From the IMG/VR virus record IMGVR_UViG_3300021185_002479, positions 1 to 43,315 of that record: a stretch of DNA of 43,315 nucleotides; one strand, written 5' to 3'. The notes beneath the pieces are model-generated. The model was given only the letters and a program-made list of their open reading frames with translations, had not been told where the DNA came from and made no database searches. The stretch is from a virus. The translations under genes were made by a program, and so were the position numbers. Position 1 is the first letter of the stretch. Each line of letters starts with the position of its first letter. Shown here one piece after another: positions 35,659-43,315 of this stretch.

Positions 35659-38600
35659 TTAATTATTTATTTGAGTTTTTAATTGTTCTATTTCTAATTT
35701 TAGTTCTTGTATTGCTTTTACCAACACGGGTACTAAATAGTCATTAGTCATTTTTAACTTATTTTCGTCTGTGTTGTTTACTATAATTGGATTATCATCT
35801 TCTATTTTTAAAATATCTTGTGCTAAAAATCCAAATCTTTGTTTTCCATCTGGAATATTTTCTTCCCTATTGTTTGTAAACTCATAAACTTTAGGGTTTA
35901 ATTGATTTACAAAATCTAATCCATAAGGTATGTCATTAATATTACTTTTATCTCTTGCATCAGATACTGTTGTCCAGCTAATTTGAATATAAGCCTGAGA
36001 GTGATCGTCATTCCCCATTTGTATTTCATTAGACCCTGTAGTTACAATACCTAATGAATTAGAGTTACTTGCATTATTACCAGCCGCTTCTCCAATTAAA
36101 ATATTATTGTTTCCGCTCGTTACAAGAAAACCAGCATTTCTACCAATACAAATGTTATTATCTCCACCACCTACATTGTGTGCAGATCCAAACCCTAATG
36201 ACACGTTACCATTCCCTGTTATTACAGTATTATCTGCTGATTGTGATCCTACAAAAGTGTTTTGCTCACCAGTTGAATTAAATCTACCTGCAAGCGCGCC
36301 TAAAAATGTATTGTTTGATGCTCTATTATATGCACCTGCATAATATCCATTAGATGTATTATAACTTCCGCCTGAATTTCCTGAAACACCATATTGAGAG
36401 AAATAACCAAGTGCGGTGTTATAACTACCAGTTTGATAAACACCAGTGCTTGAACCAACACCTGTATTAAAACCTGCGCTAGTTACAGCTTGAAAAGAAT
36501 CATAACCTAAACAAGTATTATGACTTCCGGTTGTTATATGAGAACCAGCTGATAAACCCATAGCAACATTAACACCTCCGCTTGTAAGTCGTAATAAAGC
36601 ATACGCACCTACAGCGACGTTATGAGCTCCACCGATCAACGCTTTTAATGCTTCATGACCAACAGCAACAGAGTTAACCGCTGATTCTATATTATATGCT
36701 GCAGAATTCCCTATAGCTACATTTCTAGCACCACTTGTTAAATTTGTGCTTGCGCTCATACCTATGGCTATATTGTCATTACCTGTTGTTGCCGCTATTT
36801 CTACAGCACCATTACCTATGGCTATATTATTATCTCCGCTTGTTAAGCCGTACCCAGCTTGCATACCTAAACAAGTGTTATTATTACCGGTTGCTACATA
36901 CATTGATCTTCTACCCACCGCTACGTTTCCTGCTCCAGCTGCAATAGAGCCCCCAGTTCTTTCTCCAACAAAAGTATTAAAATTACCGGTTGTAACTCCA
37001 TAACCAGCTTGATGACCAATAGCTGTATTATATGCAGCCGTGCTATTATATAAAGCATATCGACCCACACCAGTATTGTCACTGCTTGCGTTTTTATAAC
37101 CCGCGCCGGAACCAACAAACGTAACTTCATTACCACCTGTTGTTAATCTACCAGCGTGATGACCTATAAAAGTATTTTCTTGGCCATTAACATCTCTACC
37201 AGCTTCATAACCTAAAGCTGTATTATAACTATTTGAATCATTATTCAATGTTTCCATACCAATACCAGTATTATAACTACCAGTATTACCATTTAATGAA
37301 GCATAACCAACACCCACGTTTCTTTGACCACCCGATATACTTCCACCTGATTGTCTTCCTATCAAAGTGTTATAACTACCCGTTGTTACATCATATCCCG
37401 CTCTGTAACCTACTAAAACATTAGATTGCCCTGAGCTTACTATTCTTCCAGCAAATATACCAACAGCTACGTTATCGTCTCCAGTGGCACCTTCTAAAGC
37501 ATCATTACCAATACCAACAGAATTTGCAGCGGTTGATACTTGCATGGCTGTTCTACCTATAGCAATGTTGTTGCTTTGCGTTGTGGTGGATGAAAGTGCT
37601 TTATAACCTATAGCGACGTTGTTAGCGCCTGTATCTAGCGCATCTCCAGCATAATTTCCTATAACTACGTTTTGTGAAGCGTTACCAAGCGATTGCATGG
37701 CGTAATGGCCAACGGCTACATTATCATCTCCTGTCGCACCAATTGCTTCCATAGCTTGAGATCCTAAGGCTACATTTCTTGCACCGGTTGTTATACCTTT
37801 ACCAGCAAAATAACCTATAGCAGTATTATAGTCATTATTACTATAATATAAAGCTTGACCTCCAACACCTGTGTTGTGACTTGCTGTAGTTAAAACTCTT
37901 AATGCAAATGCTCCAACACCAGTATTATAACTTCCATCAATATTGTTTTCTATAGATTCACCACCTACCGCAGTGTTATAACCACCTGTGGTTAAATCTT
38001 GAAGAGCTCTAAAACCAAACGCATGGTTTCTACCAGATACAGAAGACGCTAAAGCGTTAGTACCAAAAGCAGAGCTTTCATCAGCTGTAAAACTAGTTCC
38101 ATTTAAAGCGTTATAACCATATTTAGTTATTGATCCTGACGATTGATGGTTGTATATTGAACCATTGTTTGATATAGCTAAAGTAGGTAAACTACTAGAT
38201 TCATTATAAAAATATATTTTACCGCTATCGTGTTCAATAGAAAAGTTATTACCCCCTGTTCTTCTAAAAGCTATTTTTTTATCATTTGCCACGTTTGCAA
38301 GTACAAGTTTACCGCTAGCATTTATGTCATCGCCTGAAGTAATTTCACCTGCAAAAGTTGCGTTACCACTTTCATCTACAACAAATAACTCATTATTGTT
38401 ATTTATACTAGTTTGGTTATGACCAACAACAAATTTTTCTCCTGTACCTGTGCTATTACTATCTATATTAATTCTTAAAGATGCTGGGGCATTTATAATA
38501 CCATTATGTGTTCCATTGTCATCTAATTCTAAAACCCCATCTGTTGAAGTTAACTTTTGGGCTGTTAAAAAACCTGCAAAAGTTGCATTTCCAGTAAACG

Positions 38601-38976
38601 ATGGCGAAGCTAATGGTGCTTTCAGCCCAATGTTTGTAGCTGTTGTAGTAGCGAAATTAGGATCGTCGCCTAAAGCGGCCGCTAATTCGTTTAAAGTATC
38701 TAAAGTTACTGGTGCAGAATCTACAATTAAAGCAACTCTTGCGTCAGCCCTAGCATCTGTATAATATAGATTTGTACCTTCACTTAAATCACTAGTTGTT
38801 GCGGCAGTTATCCTGGCATCTGCTCTAGCATCTGTATAATACAAGTTAGCACCCTCAGTAATATGAGCTGTTGTAATCCCACTTATTTTATCGCTAGTAA
38901 CCGCATTATCCGCTATGTTGCCTGTAGCTATCGTTGAGCTCGCTATTAAATCACCTGTTACTTTAGTGTTTGCCAT
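35659..38976 (-). CDS. Tail fibre with YadA-like repeats and S74 self-cleaving chaperone
   Basis: 1105 aa in three parts. Residues 1-140 form an attachment region with two NLYYTDARADAR units and TLNELAAALGDDPNFATTTA, shared with the next fibre. Residues about 298-970 hold about 40 units of 16-18 aa with core Asn-x-x-x-Gly-x-x-Ala (NTAIGYFAGKGITTGAR type), a left-handed beta-roll like YadA heads. Residues 1005-1105 are an intramolecular chaperone domain: SDARDKSNIND with Ser1005 as nucleophile, FGFLAQD, and a C-terminal coiled coil (VLVKAIQELKLEIEQLKTQI). The S74 domain trimerises the fibre then cuts itself off before Ser1005, as in endosialidase and T5 fibres. The repeats suggest a long shaft or receptor surface. 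Confidence 0.85.
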   Translation of the reverse strand: MANTKVTGDLIASSTIATGNIADNAVTSDKISGITTAHITEGANLYYTDARADARITAATTSDLSEGTNLYYTDARADARVALIVDSAPVTLDTLNELAAALGDDPNFATTTATNIGLKAPLASPSFTGNATFAGFLTAQKLTSTDGVLELDDNGTHNGIINAPASLRINIDSNSTGTGEKFVVGHNQTSINNNNELFVVDESGNATFAGEITSGDDINASGKLVLANVANDKKIAFRRTGGNNFSIEHDSGKIYFYNESSSLPTLAISNNGSIYNHQSSGSITKYGYNALNGTSFTADESSAFGTNALASSVSGRNHAFGFRALQDLTTGGYNTAVGGESIENNIDGSYNTGVGAFALRVLTTASHNTGVGGQALYYSNNDYNTAIGYFAGKGITTGARNVALGSQAMEAIGATGDDNVAVGHYAMQSLGNASQNVVIGNYAGDALDTGANNVAIGYKALSSTTTQSNNIAIGRTAMQVSTAANSVGIGNDALEGATGDDNVAVGIFAGRIVSSGQSNVLVGYRAGYDVTTGSYNTLIGRQSGGSISGGQRNVGVGYASLNGNTGSYNTGIGMETLNNDSNSYNTALGYEAGRDVNGQENTFIGHHAGRLTTGGNEVTFVGSGAGYKNASSDNTGVGRYALYNSTAAYNTAIGHQAGYGVTTGNFNTFVGERTGGSIAAGAGNVAVGRRSMYVATGNNNTCLGMQAGYGLTSGDNNIAIGNGAVEIAATTGNDNIAIGMSASTNLTSGARNVAIGNSAAYNIESAVNSVAVGHEALKALIGGAHNVAVGAYALLRLTSGGVNVAMGLSAGSHITTGSHNTCLGYDSFQAVTSAGFNTGVGSSTGVYQTGSYNTALGYFSQYGVSGNSGGSYNTSNGYYAGAYNRASNNTFLGALAGRFNSTGEQNTFVGSQSADNTVITGNGNVSLGFGSAHNVGGGDNNICIGRNAGFLVTSGNNNILIGEAAGNNASNSNSLGIVTTGSNEIQMGNDDHSQAYIQISWTTVSDARDKSNINDIPYGLDFVNQLNPKVYEFTNNREENIPDGKQRFGFLAQDILKIEDDNPIIVNNTDENKLKMTNDYLVPVLVKAIQELKLEIEQLKTQINN
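36060..38085 (-). repeat. About 40 tandem YadA-like 16-18 aa repeats in the fibre gene
   Basis: Counting by eye, from SSAFGTNALASSVSGR to NILIGEAAGNNASNSN there are close to 40 units with the core N-[TV/I]-x-[IVL]-G and a second Ala/Ser four residues on. Units are imperfect in DNA (typical of old repeats), but Gly, Ala and Asn positions hold. Such arrays can gain or lose units by recombination, changing fibre length. Confidence 0.85.
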
Positions 38977-38987
38977 TTATTTGTTTT

Positions 38988-41720
38988 TTATGTATAATAA
39001 TTTGTTGTAGCGCTGAATGTAGAACCTAATATTTCTAACTGATGGTTACCTCCTGTGGGATTTTGGAAACCTATATCCATCCAAAGCCCTGCATAATAAG
39101 TACTTCCACCCATATCAATTCTAAAACACACTTGATTGCTAGACGTTAAATATATAGCGCTAGAAATACCACCAACACTGCTATTGTTTATCGTTCCTTG
39201 GGCTATAACCGATCCACCTGAATATGCATATCCTGAGTGTTGTAAATCTAATATCGCACTTTGACCATACAAGTAACCATAAAATTTAGCTAAAAACATA
39301 ATGTTTGCATTAGGAATTATATTAGTTTTTATATGCCAATACCCTGCGGAACTACTTCCCGTGTGCCCATGTGCTACTCTACTGTAATATCTTGCTCCTC
39401 CGTTGGCATGCGTATCCACAATACCTCCATTATTTCCGGCCGTAGAGTTTACTACCAAAGCGCCAACACCTCCCCATCCGGAAGTTCCTACCTGAAGTTT
39501 ACCACTTATATATGAATCACCTCCAGCAGAATTTATAAGGGAAGGACTTTGACCAGAGCTACCGGTTACAAATAAATACCCATGATTTGATGCGTTTAGT
39601 CCCGCAAAAACTCTAGTGGCAGTTGTTCCCACGCCTATAATATTAATACCGTTACTGCTTGTTCCTTTTACAGAAAGAGTCGTTGTAGGCGAATCCGTTC
39701 CGATCCCGATATTACCGCCACCTTGGATACGCATTTTTTCTTGATTGTTTGCGGTACCCGCTACGTTAAAAGTCATTGCGTTACTTCCACCACTACTAGA
39801 TGTTACTATGTAATTTATAGAACCTTTAATTCCTGCGCCTTGCCCCGAACCATCTTCTCCAAAGAAATTTATACCACCAATTCTATCTCCGGCAGTCCAA
39901 CTTGAATCATTTTTTGTACATTTTAAAGTTACTATAGAAGTATTTGCTAAAGGACTTCTTAAGCTTAAAAGAGTTCCAGGCGCAGTTTCGCCGATACCGA
40001 CGTTGCCGGTGTTGGTCATAGCCATAGTCATTATACCATCCGATGCTACGGTATAGTCTGCAGCATCAACAGTATTGTTTGTGTAAAACTGGAATCCTCC
40101 TCCTGCGGCTGTTCTACCAGCAATTATTTTATTTGTTCCATTGTTTCCTAACTGCAAACCTGCCCACCTCATACTGCCGTGATAATTATCAGTATTATTG
40201 TAACTTGCTTTAAAAGCACTATTCGCATTTAAAAAAATGTTACCAACAACATGAAGTTTTTCATTAGGCCCAGTCGTTCCGATTCCTACGTCTGAGGTTG
40301 TAGAACTAGTAGCTTTAAAATACAATTGAGCAGTTCCTGCAGTAATTGGGTCACCTCCACCAGCATTAGATTTATACATACCAAAATCACTAGCTGCTAA
40401 ATTTGTAGTAGCTAACCCCCAATCATAAACTCCCCCAGCACCTTTCATTTTAAAAGTAGCCACATCAGCACTTTTAATTAAAATACCACCACCAGTTGGA
40501 ACGTTCACTTCTAATTTAGCGTTCGGTGAAGCTGTTCCGATTCCAAAGTTGCCATTGGCTGCTGGATCTATCCAATTATTACCATATGAAGTAATTCTTA
40601 CTTTTTCTAAAGGCGTTGCCTGACCTGTGTACAATGACAGAAATCCATCGGCGTTTAAAGTGTATAATTTAGATACATAATCGCCGTCTGCTTGAGTTGT
40701 TCCTATCGCTGCCCCTGTTGTTTTAACATCACCACCAAAAGTTGCAACAGTTGGTGAAAGGCTAAATTGTACGCCACTAACTGCGCCCGATGGATACATT
40801 TTCATAGAAGTACCATTAGCTGCTAAAACAGGGCCACCATTTCCATAACCACCACCCCAAAACAAATCACCGCCATCGGGTAAGCTAATTTTAGTTCCCG
40901 CATTAATTTGACCTGAAAAAGTTGCGTTTCCTGTATTTGTAATAGTTAAGACTCTTCCTGAATTTCCAACTGGGTTTGCCCCTGTGCTTGCTCCAGCAAA
41001 AAAATGGAAGTTTCCATAAGAGTCATCTGCTGGCCCAATTGCCCAATCTCGCACACCTGCGTCTGCAGTACTGGTTGAATCAAAATAAACAAGTGGTGCA
41101 GTTGCATAAGTATTTGTGTTACCAGAAACAATAACTCTTTCGTTTGCATGCACATTCCCTGAAAAAGTTGCTGATTTATCGTGATTTAAAGTTAAAGCAT
41201 CACCTAAACCAGTAGTAAAAACAAGATTAGATGAACTTAAAATTGCAGTATTTCTAATATTACTCCAATTGTTGCTACTACCTGCTGTATCATTTTTAAT
41301 TGCTAAACCTGTTCCATCTATATTTAAAGAATGTGAACTCGTATATATACCTGTTCCTCCTAAACCTACATCTCCTGCAAAAGTTGAGTTTCCTGTAAAA
41401 CTAGGTGATGCTAATGGAGCTTTTAACCCAATACTTGTTGCTGTAGTTGTTGCAAAGTTTGGATCATCTCCAAGAGCAGCAGCTAATTCATTAAGTGTAT
41501 TAAGAGTTGCAGGTGACGAATCAACTAAATTAGTTATCTGTGTACCCACATAGCTTTCTGTAGCAAAACTATTTGTAGATAAGTAAGAACTCACTCTAGC
41601 ATCCGTGTAATACAAATTGCTGCCCTCACCAATATGCGCGGTAGTTATACCGTGGCTTGAGTGTAAATTACCCTGGACTATTACCCCGTCTGATATAAGT
41701 TTTACTTTAGTTTGTGCCAT
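38988..41720 (-). CDS. Tail fibre, 910 aa, with shared anchor and GNVGIG repeats
   Basis: Starts MAQTKVKLISDGVIVQGN and shares with the neighbouring fibre the segment HIGEGSNLYYTDAR, then TLNELAAALGDDPNFATTTA and IGLKAPLASPSFTGNSTFAG. The shaft repeats short motifs such as GNVGIGETAPG, GNIGIGTDSP and DVGIGTTGP, each followed by a KL-x-V strand, interspersed with beta-strand blocks. The last 160 residues (GYWHIKTNIIPNANIMFLAK, MGGSTYYAGLWMDIGFQNPT) are a distinct beta domain likely to meet the receptor. No S74 chaperone is present, so trimerisation must occur otherwise or with help from the small proteins beside it. Eleven bases separate it from the next fibre. Confidence 0.75.
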   Translation of the reverse strand: MAQTKVKLISDGVIVQGNLHSSHGITTAHIGEGSNLYYTDARVSSYLSTNSFATESYVGTQITNLVDSSPATLNTLNELAAALGDDPNFATTTATSIGLKAPLASPSFTGNSTFAGDVGLGGTGIYTSSHSLNIDGTGLAIKNDTAGSSNNWSNIRNTAILSSSNLVFTTGLGDALTLNHDKSATFSGNVHANERVIVSGNTNTYATAPLVYFDSTSTADAGVRDWAIGPADDSYGNFHFFAGASTGANPVGNSGRVLTITNTGNATFSGQINAGTKISLPDGGDLFWGGGYGNGGPVLAANGTSMKMYPSGAVSGVQFSLSPTVATFGGDVKTTGAAIGTTQADGDYVSKLYTLNADGFLSLYTGQATPLEKVRITSYGNNWIDPAANGNFGIGTASPNAKLEVNVPTGGGILIKSADVATFKMKGAGGVYDWGLATTNLAASDFGMYKSNAGGGDPITAGTAQLYFKATSSTTSDVGIGTTGPNEKLHVVGNIFLNANSAFKASYNNTDNYHGSMRWAGLQLGNNGTNKIIAGRTAAGGGFQFYTNNTVDAADYTVASDGIMTMAMTNTGNVGIGETAPGTLLSLRSPLANTSIVTLKCTKNDSSWTAGDRIGGINFFGEDGSGQGAGIKGSINYIVTSSSGGSNAMTFNVAGTANNQEKMRIQGGGNIGIGTDSPTTTLSVKGTSSNGINIIGVGTTATRVFAGLNASNHGYLFVTGSSGQSPSLINSAGGDSYISGKLQVGTSGWGGVGALVVNSTAGNNGGIVDTHANGGARYYSRVAHGHTGSSSAGYWHIKTNIIPNANIMFLAKFYGYLYGQSAILDLQHSGYAYSGGSVIAQGTINNSSVGGISSAIYLTSSNQVCFRIDMGGSTYYAGLWMDIGFQNPTGGNHQLEILGSTFSATTNYYT
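39997..40008 (-). repeat. GC-rich repeat coding the GNVG motif (copy 1 of 3)
   Basis: The plus-strand word CCGACGTTGCCG occurs exactly at 39997-40008, 42725-42736 and 42992-43003, always at GNVG-coding positions of two different fibre genes; several near copies lie at 39700, 40270, 40545 and 43175. Its GC content (9 of 12) stands out from an AT-rich background. It may serve as a short crossing-over point between fibre modules. Confidence 0.45.
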
Positions 41721-41721
41721 A

Positions 41722-41967
41722 TTATTCTATTTCTAAACTTGCTTGGTATGCTGCTTTTATTTCGTCTGTCCAGTATATATCAGCTAAAGCTTTTACATTG
41801 TGTTCGATAGCCTTTGCATCTTCGCCACAGGGAACAGTGTCTCTATAGTAAGAACTTGATATAACATTACCGTCTTCAATTATTTGATCTGAATATCTTA
41901 TTTGAATATGTTTAAATTCGGTAACTATTTCAATTTTGTCTTGGATTCTTTTTTTTTCTAAACTCAT
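41722..41967 (-). CDS. Small fibre-associated protein
   Basis: An 81-aa protein between two fibre genes, one base from the downstream one. The sequence, IEIVTEFKHIQIRYSDQIIE, then VISSSYYRDTVPCGEDAKAI and NVKALADIYWTDEIKAAYQA, matches from memory small proteins that follow marine phage fibre genes. Likely a fibre assembly factor or tip component; I have no solid family name. No signal or membrane segment. Confidence 0.6.
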   Translation of the reverse strand: MSLEKKRIQDKIEIVTEFKHIQIRYSDQIIEDGNVISSSYYRDTVPCGEDAKAIEHNVKALADIYWTDEIKAAYQASLEIE

Positions 41968-41982
41968 TTTTAAATATTTATT

Positions 41983-43315
41983 TTATTGTACTCTATATGT
42001 GCAATTCATCATAAAATGTTGACTTGCTCCCCAAGCATTAACCCCAGCCCCGTTAACGTGAGTTGAGGATCGTTGCCCATTGGTACCATTATGCATAAAG
42101 TATAAACTTGCGGCCGAAGAATAGCCACCATACGAGGTTACACCACTGCTAGCATAAGCTAATTCCCAAACACCGTAATTTTCTGGAATAAAAGGCATAC
42201 CTCTGATTCCATAGTAAGCACCGCTCCCGGCATGACCACCTCCCCCGGTATTAAATGTATCTATCCATGCTGAAATATAAACTAAATCTCCAATTTTAAC
42301 ATACCTAGCGCCACTTATAGTAAGAGGAACATTTCCAGTGCCATCATTGTGTTGAATAACCGGCGTCCAAGTCCCTTCTTCGTAGTCGTCTAATGCGTTT
42401 GCTGATGCTGTATCGCCATTAAATGTTATACCCCCTGCTTGTGTAATACGTACTTTTTCTGATCCACTTGTATTACCGGTTTTAAATACTATATTTCTAG
42501 CTGCTATAGTTAAATCTCTATATCGCTGAGTGCCTCCGTGACCACCATATGAATCTATATAACTATTATCTCCATCATATTGAAGAAATAATCGTCCACC
42601 AGGAAAGTTGTCACCACCTATTCTTACAGCTGCATTTGTGTAACTAGTTTCACCAAACCAAGCTTGAACTTGAGCGTTCCCCGCTACCACTTGAAGCTTA
42701 TTGTCAGGCGAATCCGTCCCGATTCCGACGTTGCCGGCAGAATCAATTAAAAAAGGTACACCAAAAGAAATTCCAGCATCTGCTGTTCCGCTTGCTGCTG
42801 TTCTAAATCTTAAAATATTACCCTCAACTTGTAAAACGCCAGCAGCCGCAGTTGTTTTATAAAGCCATCCATTATTATAATAAGCGTTAGCATTTAAATA
42901 TACGGAATTAGAATATCCCCATACGCTGGCTACAGGATTTATATCAATTACGGTATTAGGTAAACTTGAAGCCCAAGGTGCAACCCCAATTCCGACGTTG
43001 CCGTATAATCTAGTTTTAGAATAACCTTCACCAACTTGAAGTAATGTACCGTTAACATCACCTTCTAAAGCTCTTCTATCGGTTCCACCAGATGTTCCAA
43101 AAACTAAACGACTATTTGAATTAGCAATTTTTATACTACCATTAACATGAAGTTTAGCGTCAGGACTCGCCGTTCCGACCCCAACATTGCCGTCAGCTGT
43201 AATTCTCATATGTTCAAACATACCTGATGCAGCTCCTGCTGTTCCATCTGAAGTTGTGAAAAAAGACAAATAACCACCCCACTGACCATCGCCTAAAGTA
43301 GTTTCTTTACCACCA
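41983..43315 (-). CDS. Tail fibre, N-terminal part cut by window edge
   Basis: The frame is open through the right edge (residues before the TTG at 43269 read GGKETTLGDGQWGGYL), so the gene begins outside the window. At least three GNVGIG or GNVGVG units with SPD(A/N)KL-x-V follow, as in the 910-aa fibre. Near the end LDDYEEGTWTPVIQHNDG begins a C-terminal beta domain common to many fibre tips, continuing YVKIGDLVYISAWIDTFNTG and SQHFMMNCTYRVQ. It probably forms a receptor-binding tip on a trimeric shaft. Upstream of it, off the window, more structural genes may lie. Confidence 0.7.
   Translation of the reverse strand, partial: GGKETTLGDGQWGGYLSFFTTSDGTAGAASGMFEHMRITADGNVGVGTASPDAKLHVNGSIKIANSNSRLVFGTSGGTDRRALEGDVNGTLLQVGEGYSKTRLYGNVGIGVAPWASSLPNTVIDINPVASVWGYSNSVYLNANAYYNNGWLYKTTAAAGVLQVEGNILRFRTAASGTADAGISFGVPFLIDSAGNVGIGTDSPDNKLQVVAGNAQVQAWFGETSYTNAAVRIGGDNFPGGRLFLQYDGDNSYIDSYGGHGGTQRYRDLTIAARNIVFKTGNTSGSEKVRITQAGGITFNGDTASANALDDYEEGTWTPVIQHNDGTGNVPLTISGARYVKIGDLVYISAWIDTFNTGGGGHAGSGAYYGIRGMPFIPENYGVWELAYASSGVTSYGGYSSAASLYFMHNGTNGQRSSTHVNGAGVNAWGASQHFMMNCTYRVQ

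Follow-up and report, generated by a model that had tools for sequence, protein, structure and literature searches.

Modular phage fibers and conserved separators between their modules are already known; the subject here is a GNVGIG joint, a short stretch of DNA that encodes a glycine-rich motif, recurs in two tail fiber genes (A and B) of the IMG/VR virus record IMGVR_UViG_3300021185_002479, and marks many of the borders at which cassettes of such genes meet. The entire record of 43,315 bp was analyzed and is referred to below as the window. Among the described systems, fiber tips built as polyglycine-II sandwiches recombine at their Gly-rich motifs. By description, these tips are similar in that conserved Gly-rich stretches separate variable host-recognition segments, whereas they differ in having a polyglycine-II sandwich fold and loops instead of capping loops between beta-helix modules.

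In the passages of Caulton et al. (2024; PMC10769870) considered here, the mosaic adhesive trimer (MAT) fibers of Bdellovibrio carry capping loops at beta-helix edges, and a beta-helix region of Bd2133 begins at G683. By the numbering T681-S-G-N-L-G, this residue is the first glycine of the motif. Gene B matches three Bdellovibrio fiber chains (whole-sequence E values of 1.6e-6 for 8ond, 4.2e-5 for 8oml, and 0.0021 for 8on4, single stretches being weak), with GNVGVGTASPDAKLHV of gene B aligned on GNLGLGTAAPTSALHV of 8ond, and the printed MAT consensus V-G-G/N-pi-x-x-P-x-x-x-L does not match gene B letter for letter. In these solved relatives the motif lies at or beside the edges of structural modules; there it is a capping loop at the edge of a beta-helix, and a joint at this position would be the least likely to break the trimer. 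MAT fibers have a matching sequence motif and may share trimeric beta-helix segments, capping loops at the edges and exchanged tips with the present fibers, but they are bacterial surface proteins, and a DNA-level joint and mapped breakpoints are absent from those passages (PMC10769870). The available passages on domain mosaicism of phage tail fibers and spikes (Smug et al., 2023; PMC10684548) describe a protein-level study that, unlike the present one, mentions neither breakpoints nor linkers and locates no joint. Metaviromic islands of marine phages (PMC3909814) are similar in that host-recognition genes, including tail fibers, vary between otherwise similar phages; unlike the joint, they are gaps in read recruitment, and the text leaves recombination unmentioned and locates no joint. 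Finally, lambda Red recombines sequences that are 22% diverged with high yield, according to the passages considered (PMC2327257), and such homeologous recombination is the kind of pairing that we propose for the fiber joints; unlike here, that work concerns engineered gene pairs in lambda. In the open-license literature on fiber recombination and related topics, we found no paper naming a GNVGIG joint.

We consider it probable that the DNA encoding the beta-helix capping-loop motif (hereafter the word) doubles as the crossover joint of fiber cassettes, and DNA similarity, rather than protein selection alone, may guide the crossover. Cassettes that are 94-100% identical in DNA lie between unrelated neighbors, their breakpoints fall at the motif, the switch from one partner to the other occurs inside the word, and synonymous codons are shared among the words of a gene or gene pool. 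The features concerned are as follows, with exact copies of the 12-mer CCGACGTTGCCG indicated and with L numbers denoting compared loci.

38988-41720, minus strand: fiber gene A, an open reading frame (ORF) of 910 amino acids, with four of the seven motif sites counted
41983-43315, minus strand: fiber gene B, 5' end truncated by the end of the record, with three of the seven motif sites and matches to tail fiber PHROGs
43165-43194, minus strand: joint word 1 of gene B, translated as GNVGVGTAS
42976-43005, minus strand: joint word 2 of gene B, GNVGIGVAP, holding the exact 12-mer at 42992-43003
42709-42738, minus strand: joint word 3 of gene B, GNVGIGTDS, holding the exact 12-mer at 42725-42736
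40527-40556, minus strand: joint word of gene A, translated as GNFGIGTAS
40269-40298, minus strand: joint word of gene A, translated as SDVGIGTTG
39981-40010, minus strand: joint word of gene A, GNVGIGETA, holding the exact 12-mer at 39997-40008
39690-39719, minus strand: joint word of gene A, translated as GNIGIGTDS
39506-39686, minus strand: cassette of gene A common to L020, from sequence comparison

In the window itself, the cassette downstream of the GNIGIGTDS word is 96.1% identical to that of L020 over 180 bp, and the upstream sides are unrelated; it is bordered by this word on one side and, on the other, by a position that is a motif in L020 and degenerate in the window. Left of word 1 of gene B, the 117 bp at 43198-43314 agree with L010 at 100%, and the DNA beyond is unmatched.

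Breakpoints were mapped among 20 fetched relatives of gene A, which together with the window form the clade considered here, some of these loci being near-copies of each other. All sequences were compared against all after masking nucleotides (nt) -6 to +30 around every motif in the fiber ORFs, and a match of at least 85% and at least 80 bp was taken to end in a breakpoint wherever it did not continue collinearly. We ourselves set the limit of 12 nt, the extent of the motif zone (from the first motif to the last in each of the two partners) and the bins of 24 nt used for de-duplication. Every zone breakpoint in the clade (32/32) was no more than 12 nt from the edge of a word in one partner or both, and for 27 of the 32 this held in both, whereas decoy masks shifted by +60, +90, +120, +150, -60, and -90 nt gave 2/32, 1/34, 1/36, 3/33, 7/29, and 0/25, respectively. 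With a narrower motif pattern, the count was 17/17 for one partner or both (1.8 on average at random, the highest of 1,000 random values being 7) and 12 for both (0.05 on average at random). After de-duplication, 46 of all 99 clade breakpoints were at GxxGxG words. Unmasked BLAST ends also accumulated at the motif, namely 18 of 74 left ends (-30 to +15 nt; 4.1 expected) and 27 of 138 right ends (0 to +45 nt; 8.4 expected), but because a conserved word can extend a match, we rely on the masked analysis and its decoys. Shared cassettes are often more similar than the DNA outside the fiber genes, with 94.6% versus mostly 70-72% for L011/L023, 94.1% versus 79-87% for L020 and the window, and 95.9% versus 78% for L012/L023. 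L006 and L016 are 99.2% identical along 5.2 kb that comprise backbone and the start of the gene, yet their cassettes differ; cassettes present or absent on a near-identical backbone suggest that exchange is fast relative to backbone divergence.

Cultured phages show the same pattern. In 16 cultured-phage regions taken from 116 matching records, 22 of 31 zone breakpoints were at words, 19 of them in both partners (decoys 3/21, 0/24, 0/24, 2/27, 3/23, and 3/31), as were 28 of all 47 isolate breakpoints. For example, HTVC142P and Jormungand, both phages of Pelagibacter, agree at 100% over 978 bp starting at a word, with the match ending at the word on the upstream side, and HTVC168P and HTVC134P share 93.6% over 204 bp from word to word. 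Kolga and Jormungand, of which the latter is filed in Autographiviridae and the former as Caudoviricetes only, have 260 bp in common at 93.5% identity, and the far end of this stretch coincides with a word in Kolga but with a degenerate version of it in Jormungand. In addition, S-TIM5 and S-TIM66 share 98.5% over 472 bp, with words in both phages at one end and in S-TIM66 alone at the other.

The position of the switch was resolved by 14 three-way comparisons, in which one partner shares the left flank only and another the right flank only; they derive from a small number of recombinant genes and are not mutually independent. Along the 36 nt of the word, the recombinant agrees at first with one partner and afterwards with the other, 12 of 181 informative positions being discordant versus 55.3 after shuffling, and 7 of the 14 trios contain no discordant position. 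In the cleanest trio, the left side of L006 is 100% identical to one joint of L016, its right side is 100% identical to a later joint in that L016 gene, and all have 18 nt (GGAAACGTAGGAATTGGA) in common; therefore, the two genes differ by one module that was precisely removed or added. In left-shared pairs (49, not de-duplicated), third-position identity falls from 0.80 two codons before the motif to 0.33 at codon +6 and is 0.39-0.69 beyond, and in right-shared pairs (37, not de-duplicated) it rises from 0.38-0.57 just before the motif to 0.81-0.89 at the end of the word. The crossovers thus lie within a stretch common to both partners, as they would in a homologous-recombination joint. A preliminary description of this DNA had suggested looking for the word at breakpoints between divergent fiber modules, with breakpoints elsewhere in relatives as contrary evidence; in the clade and in the isolates such breakpoints do fall at the motif, and where three-way comparisons resolve their position they lie inside the 36-nt word.

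The spelling of the word in the window is unusual. In addition to its three exact copies, CCGACGTTGCCG has a copy with two mismatches at 43181-43192, so that a search of both strands gave four matches with up to two mismatches versus 0.22 expected, a number reached by none of 100 shuffles; beyond the three copies in the fiber genes, the window contains no further exact copy. The 12-mer encodes GNVG as GGC AAC GTC followed by GGA or GGT, in genes whose G+C fraction at third codon positions (GC3) is 0.22. Seven sites match [GS][ND][VIF]G[IV]G; counted over their codons -1 to +8, G or C stands at 40 of the 70 third positions, whereas 2,000 within-gene synonymous shuffles gave a mean of 14.8 and a maximum of 27. 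Similarly, six of the eight ATC codons and four of the six GTC codons in genes A and B lie within motifs. Because 16 different 12-mers occur three times in the window, of which CCGACGTTGCCG is the GC-richest, a triple 12-mer is not rare as such; what is unusual is a GC-rich spelling at a recurring coding position. The preliminary description had reported such repeats with near copies in the two fiber genes, had noted the use of GGC, AAC, GTC, and GGA in an otherwise AT-rich gene, and had held that the protein does not force these codons; the repeats and their codons are borne out, and the random spread through the genome that it regarded as contrary evidence is not seen, as CCGACGTTGCCG is confined to genes A and B. 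Matches to CCGACGTTGCCG all lie on one strand, with no reverse-strand copy as would be seen for a shufflon-type inverted site, recombinases being looked at only in general ORF scans. Likewise, general scans gave no match to a reverse transcriptase (as in diversity-generating retroelements) among the window proteins, no dedicated search having been made.

Spelling is also shared beyond the window, within genes and pools. Words were compared in pairs within single ORFs where the modules downstream of them were unrelated (identity over 24 residues no higher than 35%). Codon identity in these pairs was 0.493 versus 0.372 expected (n = 7,820) and above expectation in 63 of 80 ORFs, whereas identical residues elsewhere in those ORFs showed no excess (0.368 versus 0.368, n = 2,538). 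The excess was found in 25 of 28 gene B relatives, 32 of 39 ORFs of the gene-A clade and 20 of 22 isolate ORFs. In the gene-A clade it also extends across genes and contigs, at 0.518 versus 0.408 expected for words and 0.475 versus 0.451 for other positions (126 sites, 20 loci). Recurrent 4-mers outside the words of the same ORFs, used as a control, showed a smaller excess, at 0.487 versus 0.454 in the clade (words, 0.566 versus 0.428) and 0.428 versus 0.395 in the isolates (words, 0.582 versus 0.355). Gene pools have their own spellings of the motif: Synechococcus phage S-CRES2 typically uses GGC AAC GTT GGT ATC GGT ACG AGT (0.695 versus 0.339), Pelagibacter phages use the AT-rich GAC AGT TCT GGT AAC GTA GGT ATT GGT ACA (0.578 versus 0.434), S-TIM cyanophages also show an excess (0.463 versus 0.339), and the clade of the window has two main spellings, GGC AAC GTC GGG ATC GGG ACG and GGA AAC GTA GGA ATT GGA. 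As a separate observation, the motif is common in bacterial genomes too (L240-L358; Bacteroidota, Patescibacteria, Omnitrophota, and others), with weaker codon sharing within ORFs (56 of 81).

These features would be accommodated by the following mechanism. Fiber genes are chains of modules, many of which begin with G-N/D-V-G-I-G-T-x-x-P-x-x-x-L. When two viruses, or two copies of the gene, meet in one cell, strands may pair at the motif-coding DNA, which resembles its partner in every module. A crossover within these approximately 30 nt would then fuse, in frame, a left module from one partner with a right module from the other. We infer that the strands pair by homologous or homeologous annealing, as opposed to being joined illegitimately and then sorted by selection, and that continual exchange via the words would keep codons uniform within a pool. 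Uniformity maintained in this manner would explain why the spelling is partly GC-rich here and AT-rich in pelagiphages.

Several results weigh against this explanation. More than 12 nt separate 53 of the 99 clade breakpoints from any GxxGxG word, and 19 of the 47 isolate breakpoints from a word. In the list obtained with the narrower pattern, the remaining breakpoints include further motif variants, and many lie at other conserved fiber linkers such as NLYYTDAR, GDDPNF, SPSFTG/GGTLTG, and LDDYEEGTWTP, so that the GxxGxG motif represents one kind of border among several. Two findings speak against strictly required homology: within a trio, the longest common stretch measures 3-18 nt, with a median of 5, and identity between partner words (0.73) is not significantly above that of random ones (0.67), being reached by 7.4% of randomizations in 11 trios. 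The recombination events share lineages, and the trios come from few recombinant genes. In the unbiased set, control 4-mers also show an excess (0.574 versus 0.488; words, 0.543 versus 0.368), so that part of the word excess there is not word-specific. Diverged homologous modules show no codon excess (0.35 versus 0.36 for 1,624 pairs; 0.39 versus 0.37 for 309 pairs), and scans of window ORFs revealed no recombinase. The proposal in the preliminary description that DNA words guide module swapping therefore stands in part: breakpoints at the motif, the switch in the word and synonymous codons shared within a gene or pool agree with it, whereas the similarity of partner words is not significant, and the word may seed recombination or may instead mark borders at which recombinants survive.

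The short common stretches and the modest similarity of partner words would be expected if selection on the protein alone were at work, with crossovers occurring anywhere, survivors found at the capping-loop border since only those fold as a trimer, and DNA spelling incidental. The location of the motif at or beside module edges in solved relatives also favors this explanation, which we regard as unlikely, though it is the most serious competitor. It accounts for where breakpoints survive but not for synonymous codons that are shared in one gene or pool and not at identical residues elsewhere.

Shared descent alone, in which modules are recent copies whose word codons have yet to drift, appears improbable. 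Some module pairs are indeed related, and the words of one ORF are the most alike; however, the excess is seen for pairs with unrelated downstream modules and is absent elsewhere in the ORFs, and descent leaves the breakpoints unexplained.

A universal fixed DNA signal, such as a Chi-like site or a recombinase target, is more improbable still. A pattern covering all GNVGIGT encodings was scanned against IMG/VR and matched at least 120 stretches; the matches listed contain 217 sites, of which 216 were usable, in 119 loci. Pooled over these loci at one site per locus, certain codons are over-used, namely GGC (61 versus 28.8 expected), ACG (48 versus 15.8), and TCG at codon +8 (33 versus 5.1), and codon choices are linked within a word (variance in G/C count of 4.02 versus a permuted mean of 1.62 and maximum of 2.19; 142 sites in low-GC3 ORFs). 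Between loci, codon identity exceeds expectation at GC3 0.3-0.4 (0.395 versus 0.321) and 0.4-0.6 (0.353 versus 0.299), which would also fit such a signal. However, it is as expected at GC3 0.2-0.3 (0.362 versus 0.363) and falls short of expectation in the bin with the highest AT content (0.363 versus 0.423), the chance of the same codon in words of unrelated ORFs is 0.319 versus 0.318 expected (n = 139,737), and spellings differ by pool. A lean in codon use thus exists and a universal word does not; with codon identity at expectation both between unrelated viruses overall and in diverged homologous modules, the universal word was rejected. The codon-bias comparison suggested in the preliminary description accordingly upholds the GC-rich spelling in the window and its sharing within genes and pools, but not GC-richness or this exact sequence as the key, the pelagiphage words being AT-rich. 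Loci L024-L143, which differ in GC, show a pooled lean to ACG at threonine and to AGT and then TCG at codons +7/+8.

The idea that rare codons slow translation at module borders and so aid folding fits the rarity of the motif codons in the window genome, but we give it almost no credence and rejected it, as pelagiphage words are mostly AT-ending in AT-rich genes and GGC and GTC are still favored at the motif in GC-richer ORFs, where they are not rare. Assembly chimeras, in which short-read metagenome assemblies join unrelated modules at repeated words, were rejected as scarcely conceivable: although the contigs are mostly of metagenomic origin and the words are repeated sequences, cultured genomes carry the same breakpoints, and L007/L008/L009 and L012/L013 show the same motif series where they overlap, despite coming from different metagenomes.

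If the word is indeed a crossover joint, an old question is touched, namely how phages can exchange the parts that recognize the host and still keep a trimeric fiber intact. The natural joint is located to approximately 30 nt, recurs in relatives of a crAss-like virus as well as in pelagiphages and cyanophages, and predicts where to divide a fiber gene into units. A further and rather doubtful possibility is that each marine phage pool keeps a private spelling of the joint as a recombination currency, such that modules would be exchangeable at codon precision and other spellings largely shut out. In that event, synonymous sites would be selected to keep modules exchangeable, or the exchange as such would keep them uniform, and sequence alone would reveal which viruses share a fiber gene pool.

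The window has a GC content of 33.5% and is probably from a marine crAss-like phage. One structural protein matches the crAss-like muzzle protein (PF25731, E 2.3e-13; PF25729, 3.7e-10), and another protein matches terminase family phrog_6681. It also encodes thymidylate synthase, a MazG-like protein and both ribonucleotide reductase subunits. The N-terminal part of gene A matches tail protein and tail fiber PHROGs (phrog_1197, E 7.5e-18), and genes A and B have no Pfam matches up to E 0.1 and hence no C-terminal S74 domain. Between the two fiber genes lies one further gene:

41722-41967, minus strand: gene D, 81 amino acids, matching phrog_6228 of unknown function

ORFs of approximately 255 bp occupy this position in several Pelagibacter phages, according to annotation tables. 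A possible junction resolvase is encoded by a 151-amino-acid ORF at 2380-2835, with a match to DUF1064 (7.5e-7) and a weak one to phage endonuclease I (0.0084). Gene C (35659-38976; 1,105 amino acids) contains a long run of NTAxG-type repeats, which we take to resemble YadA head repeats, and has a C-terminal Peptidase_S74 domain (E 1.8e-10). Its LNELAAALGDDPNF linker (38675-38682) contains the GC-rich GCGGCCGC, and the same linker is AT-rich in gene A. Finally, CCTGCAAAAGTT is present three times, with two copies (38573-38584 and 41374-41385) in ATFAG/STFAG linkers of fiber genes, and may be another border word.

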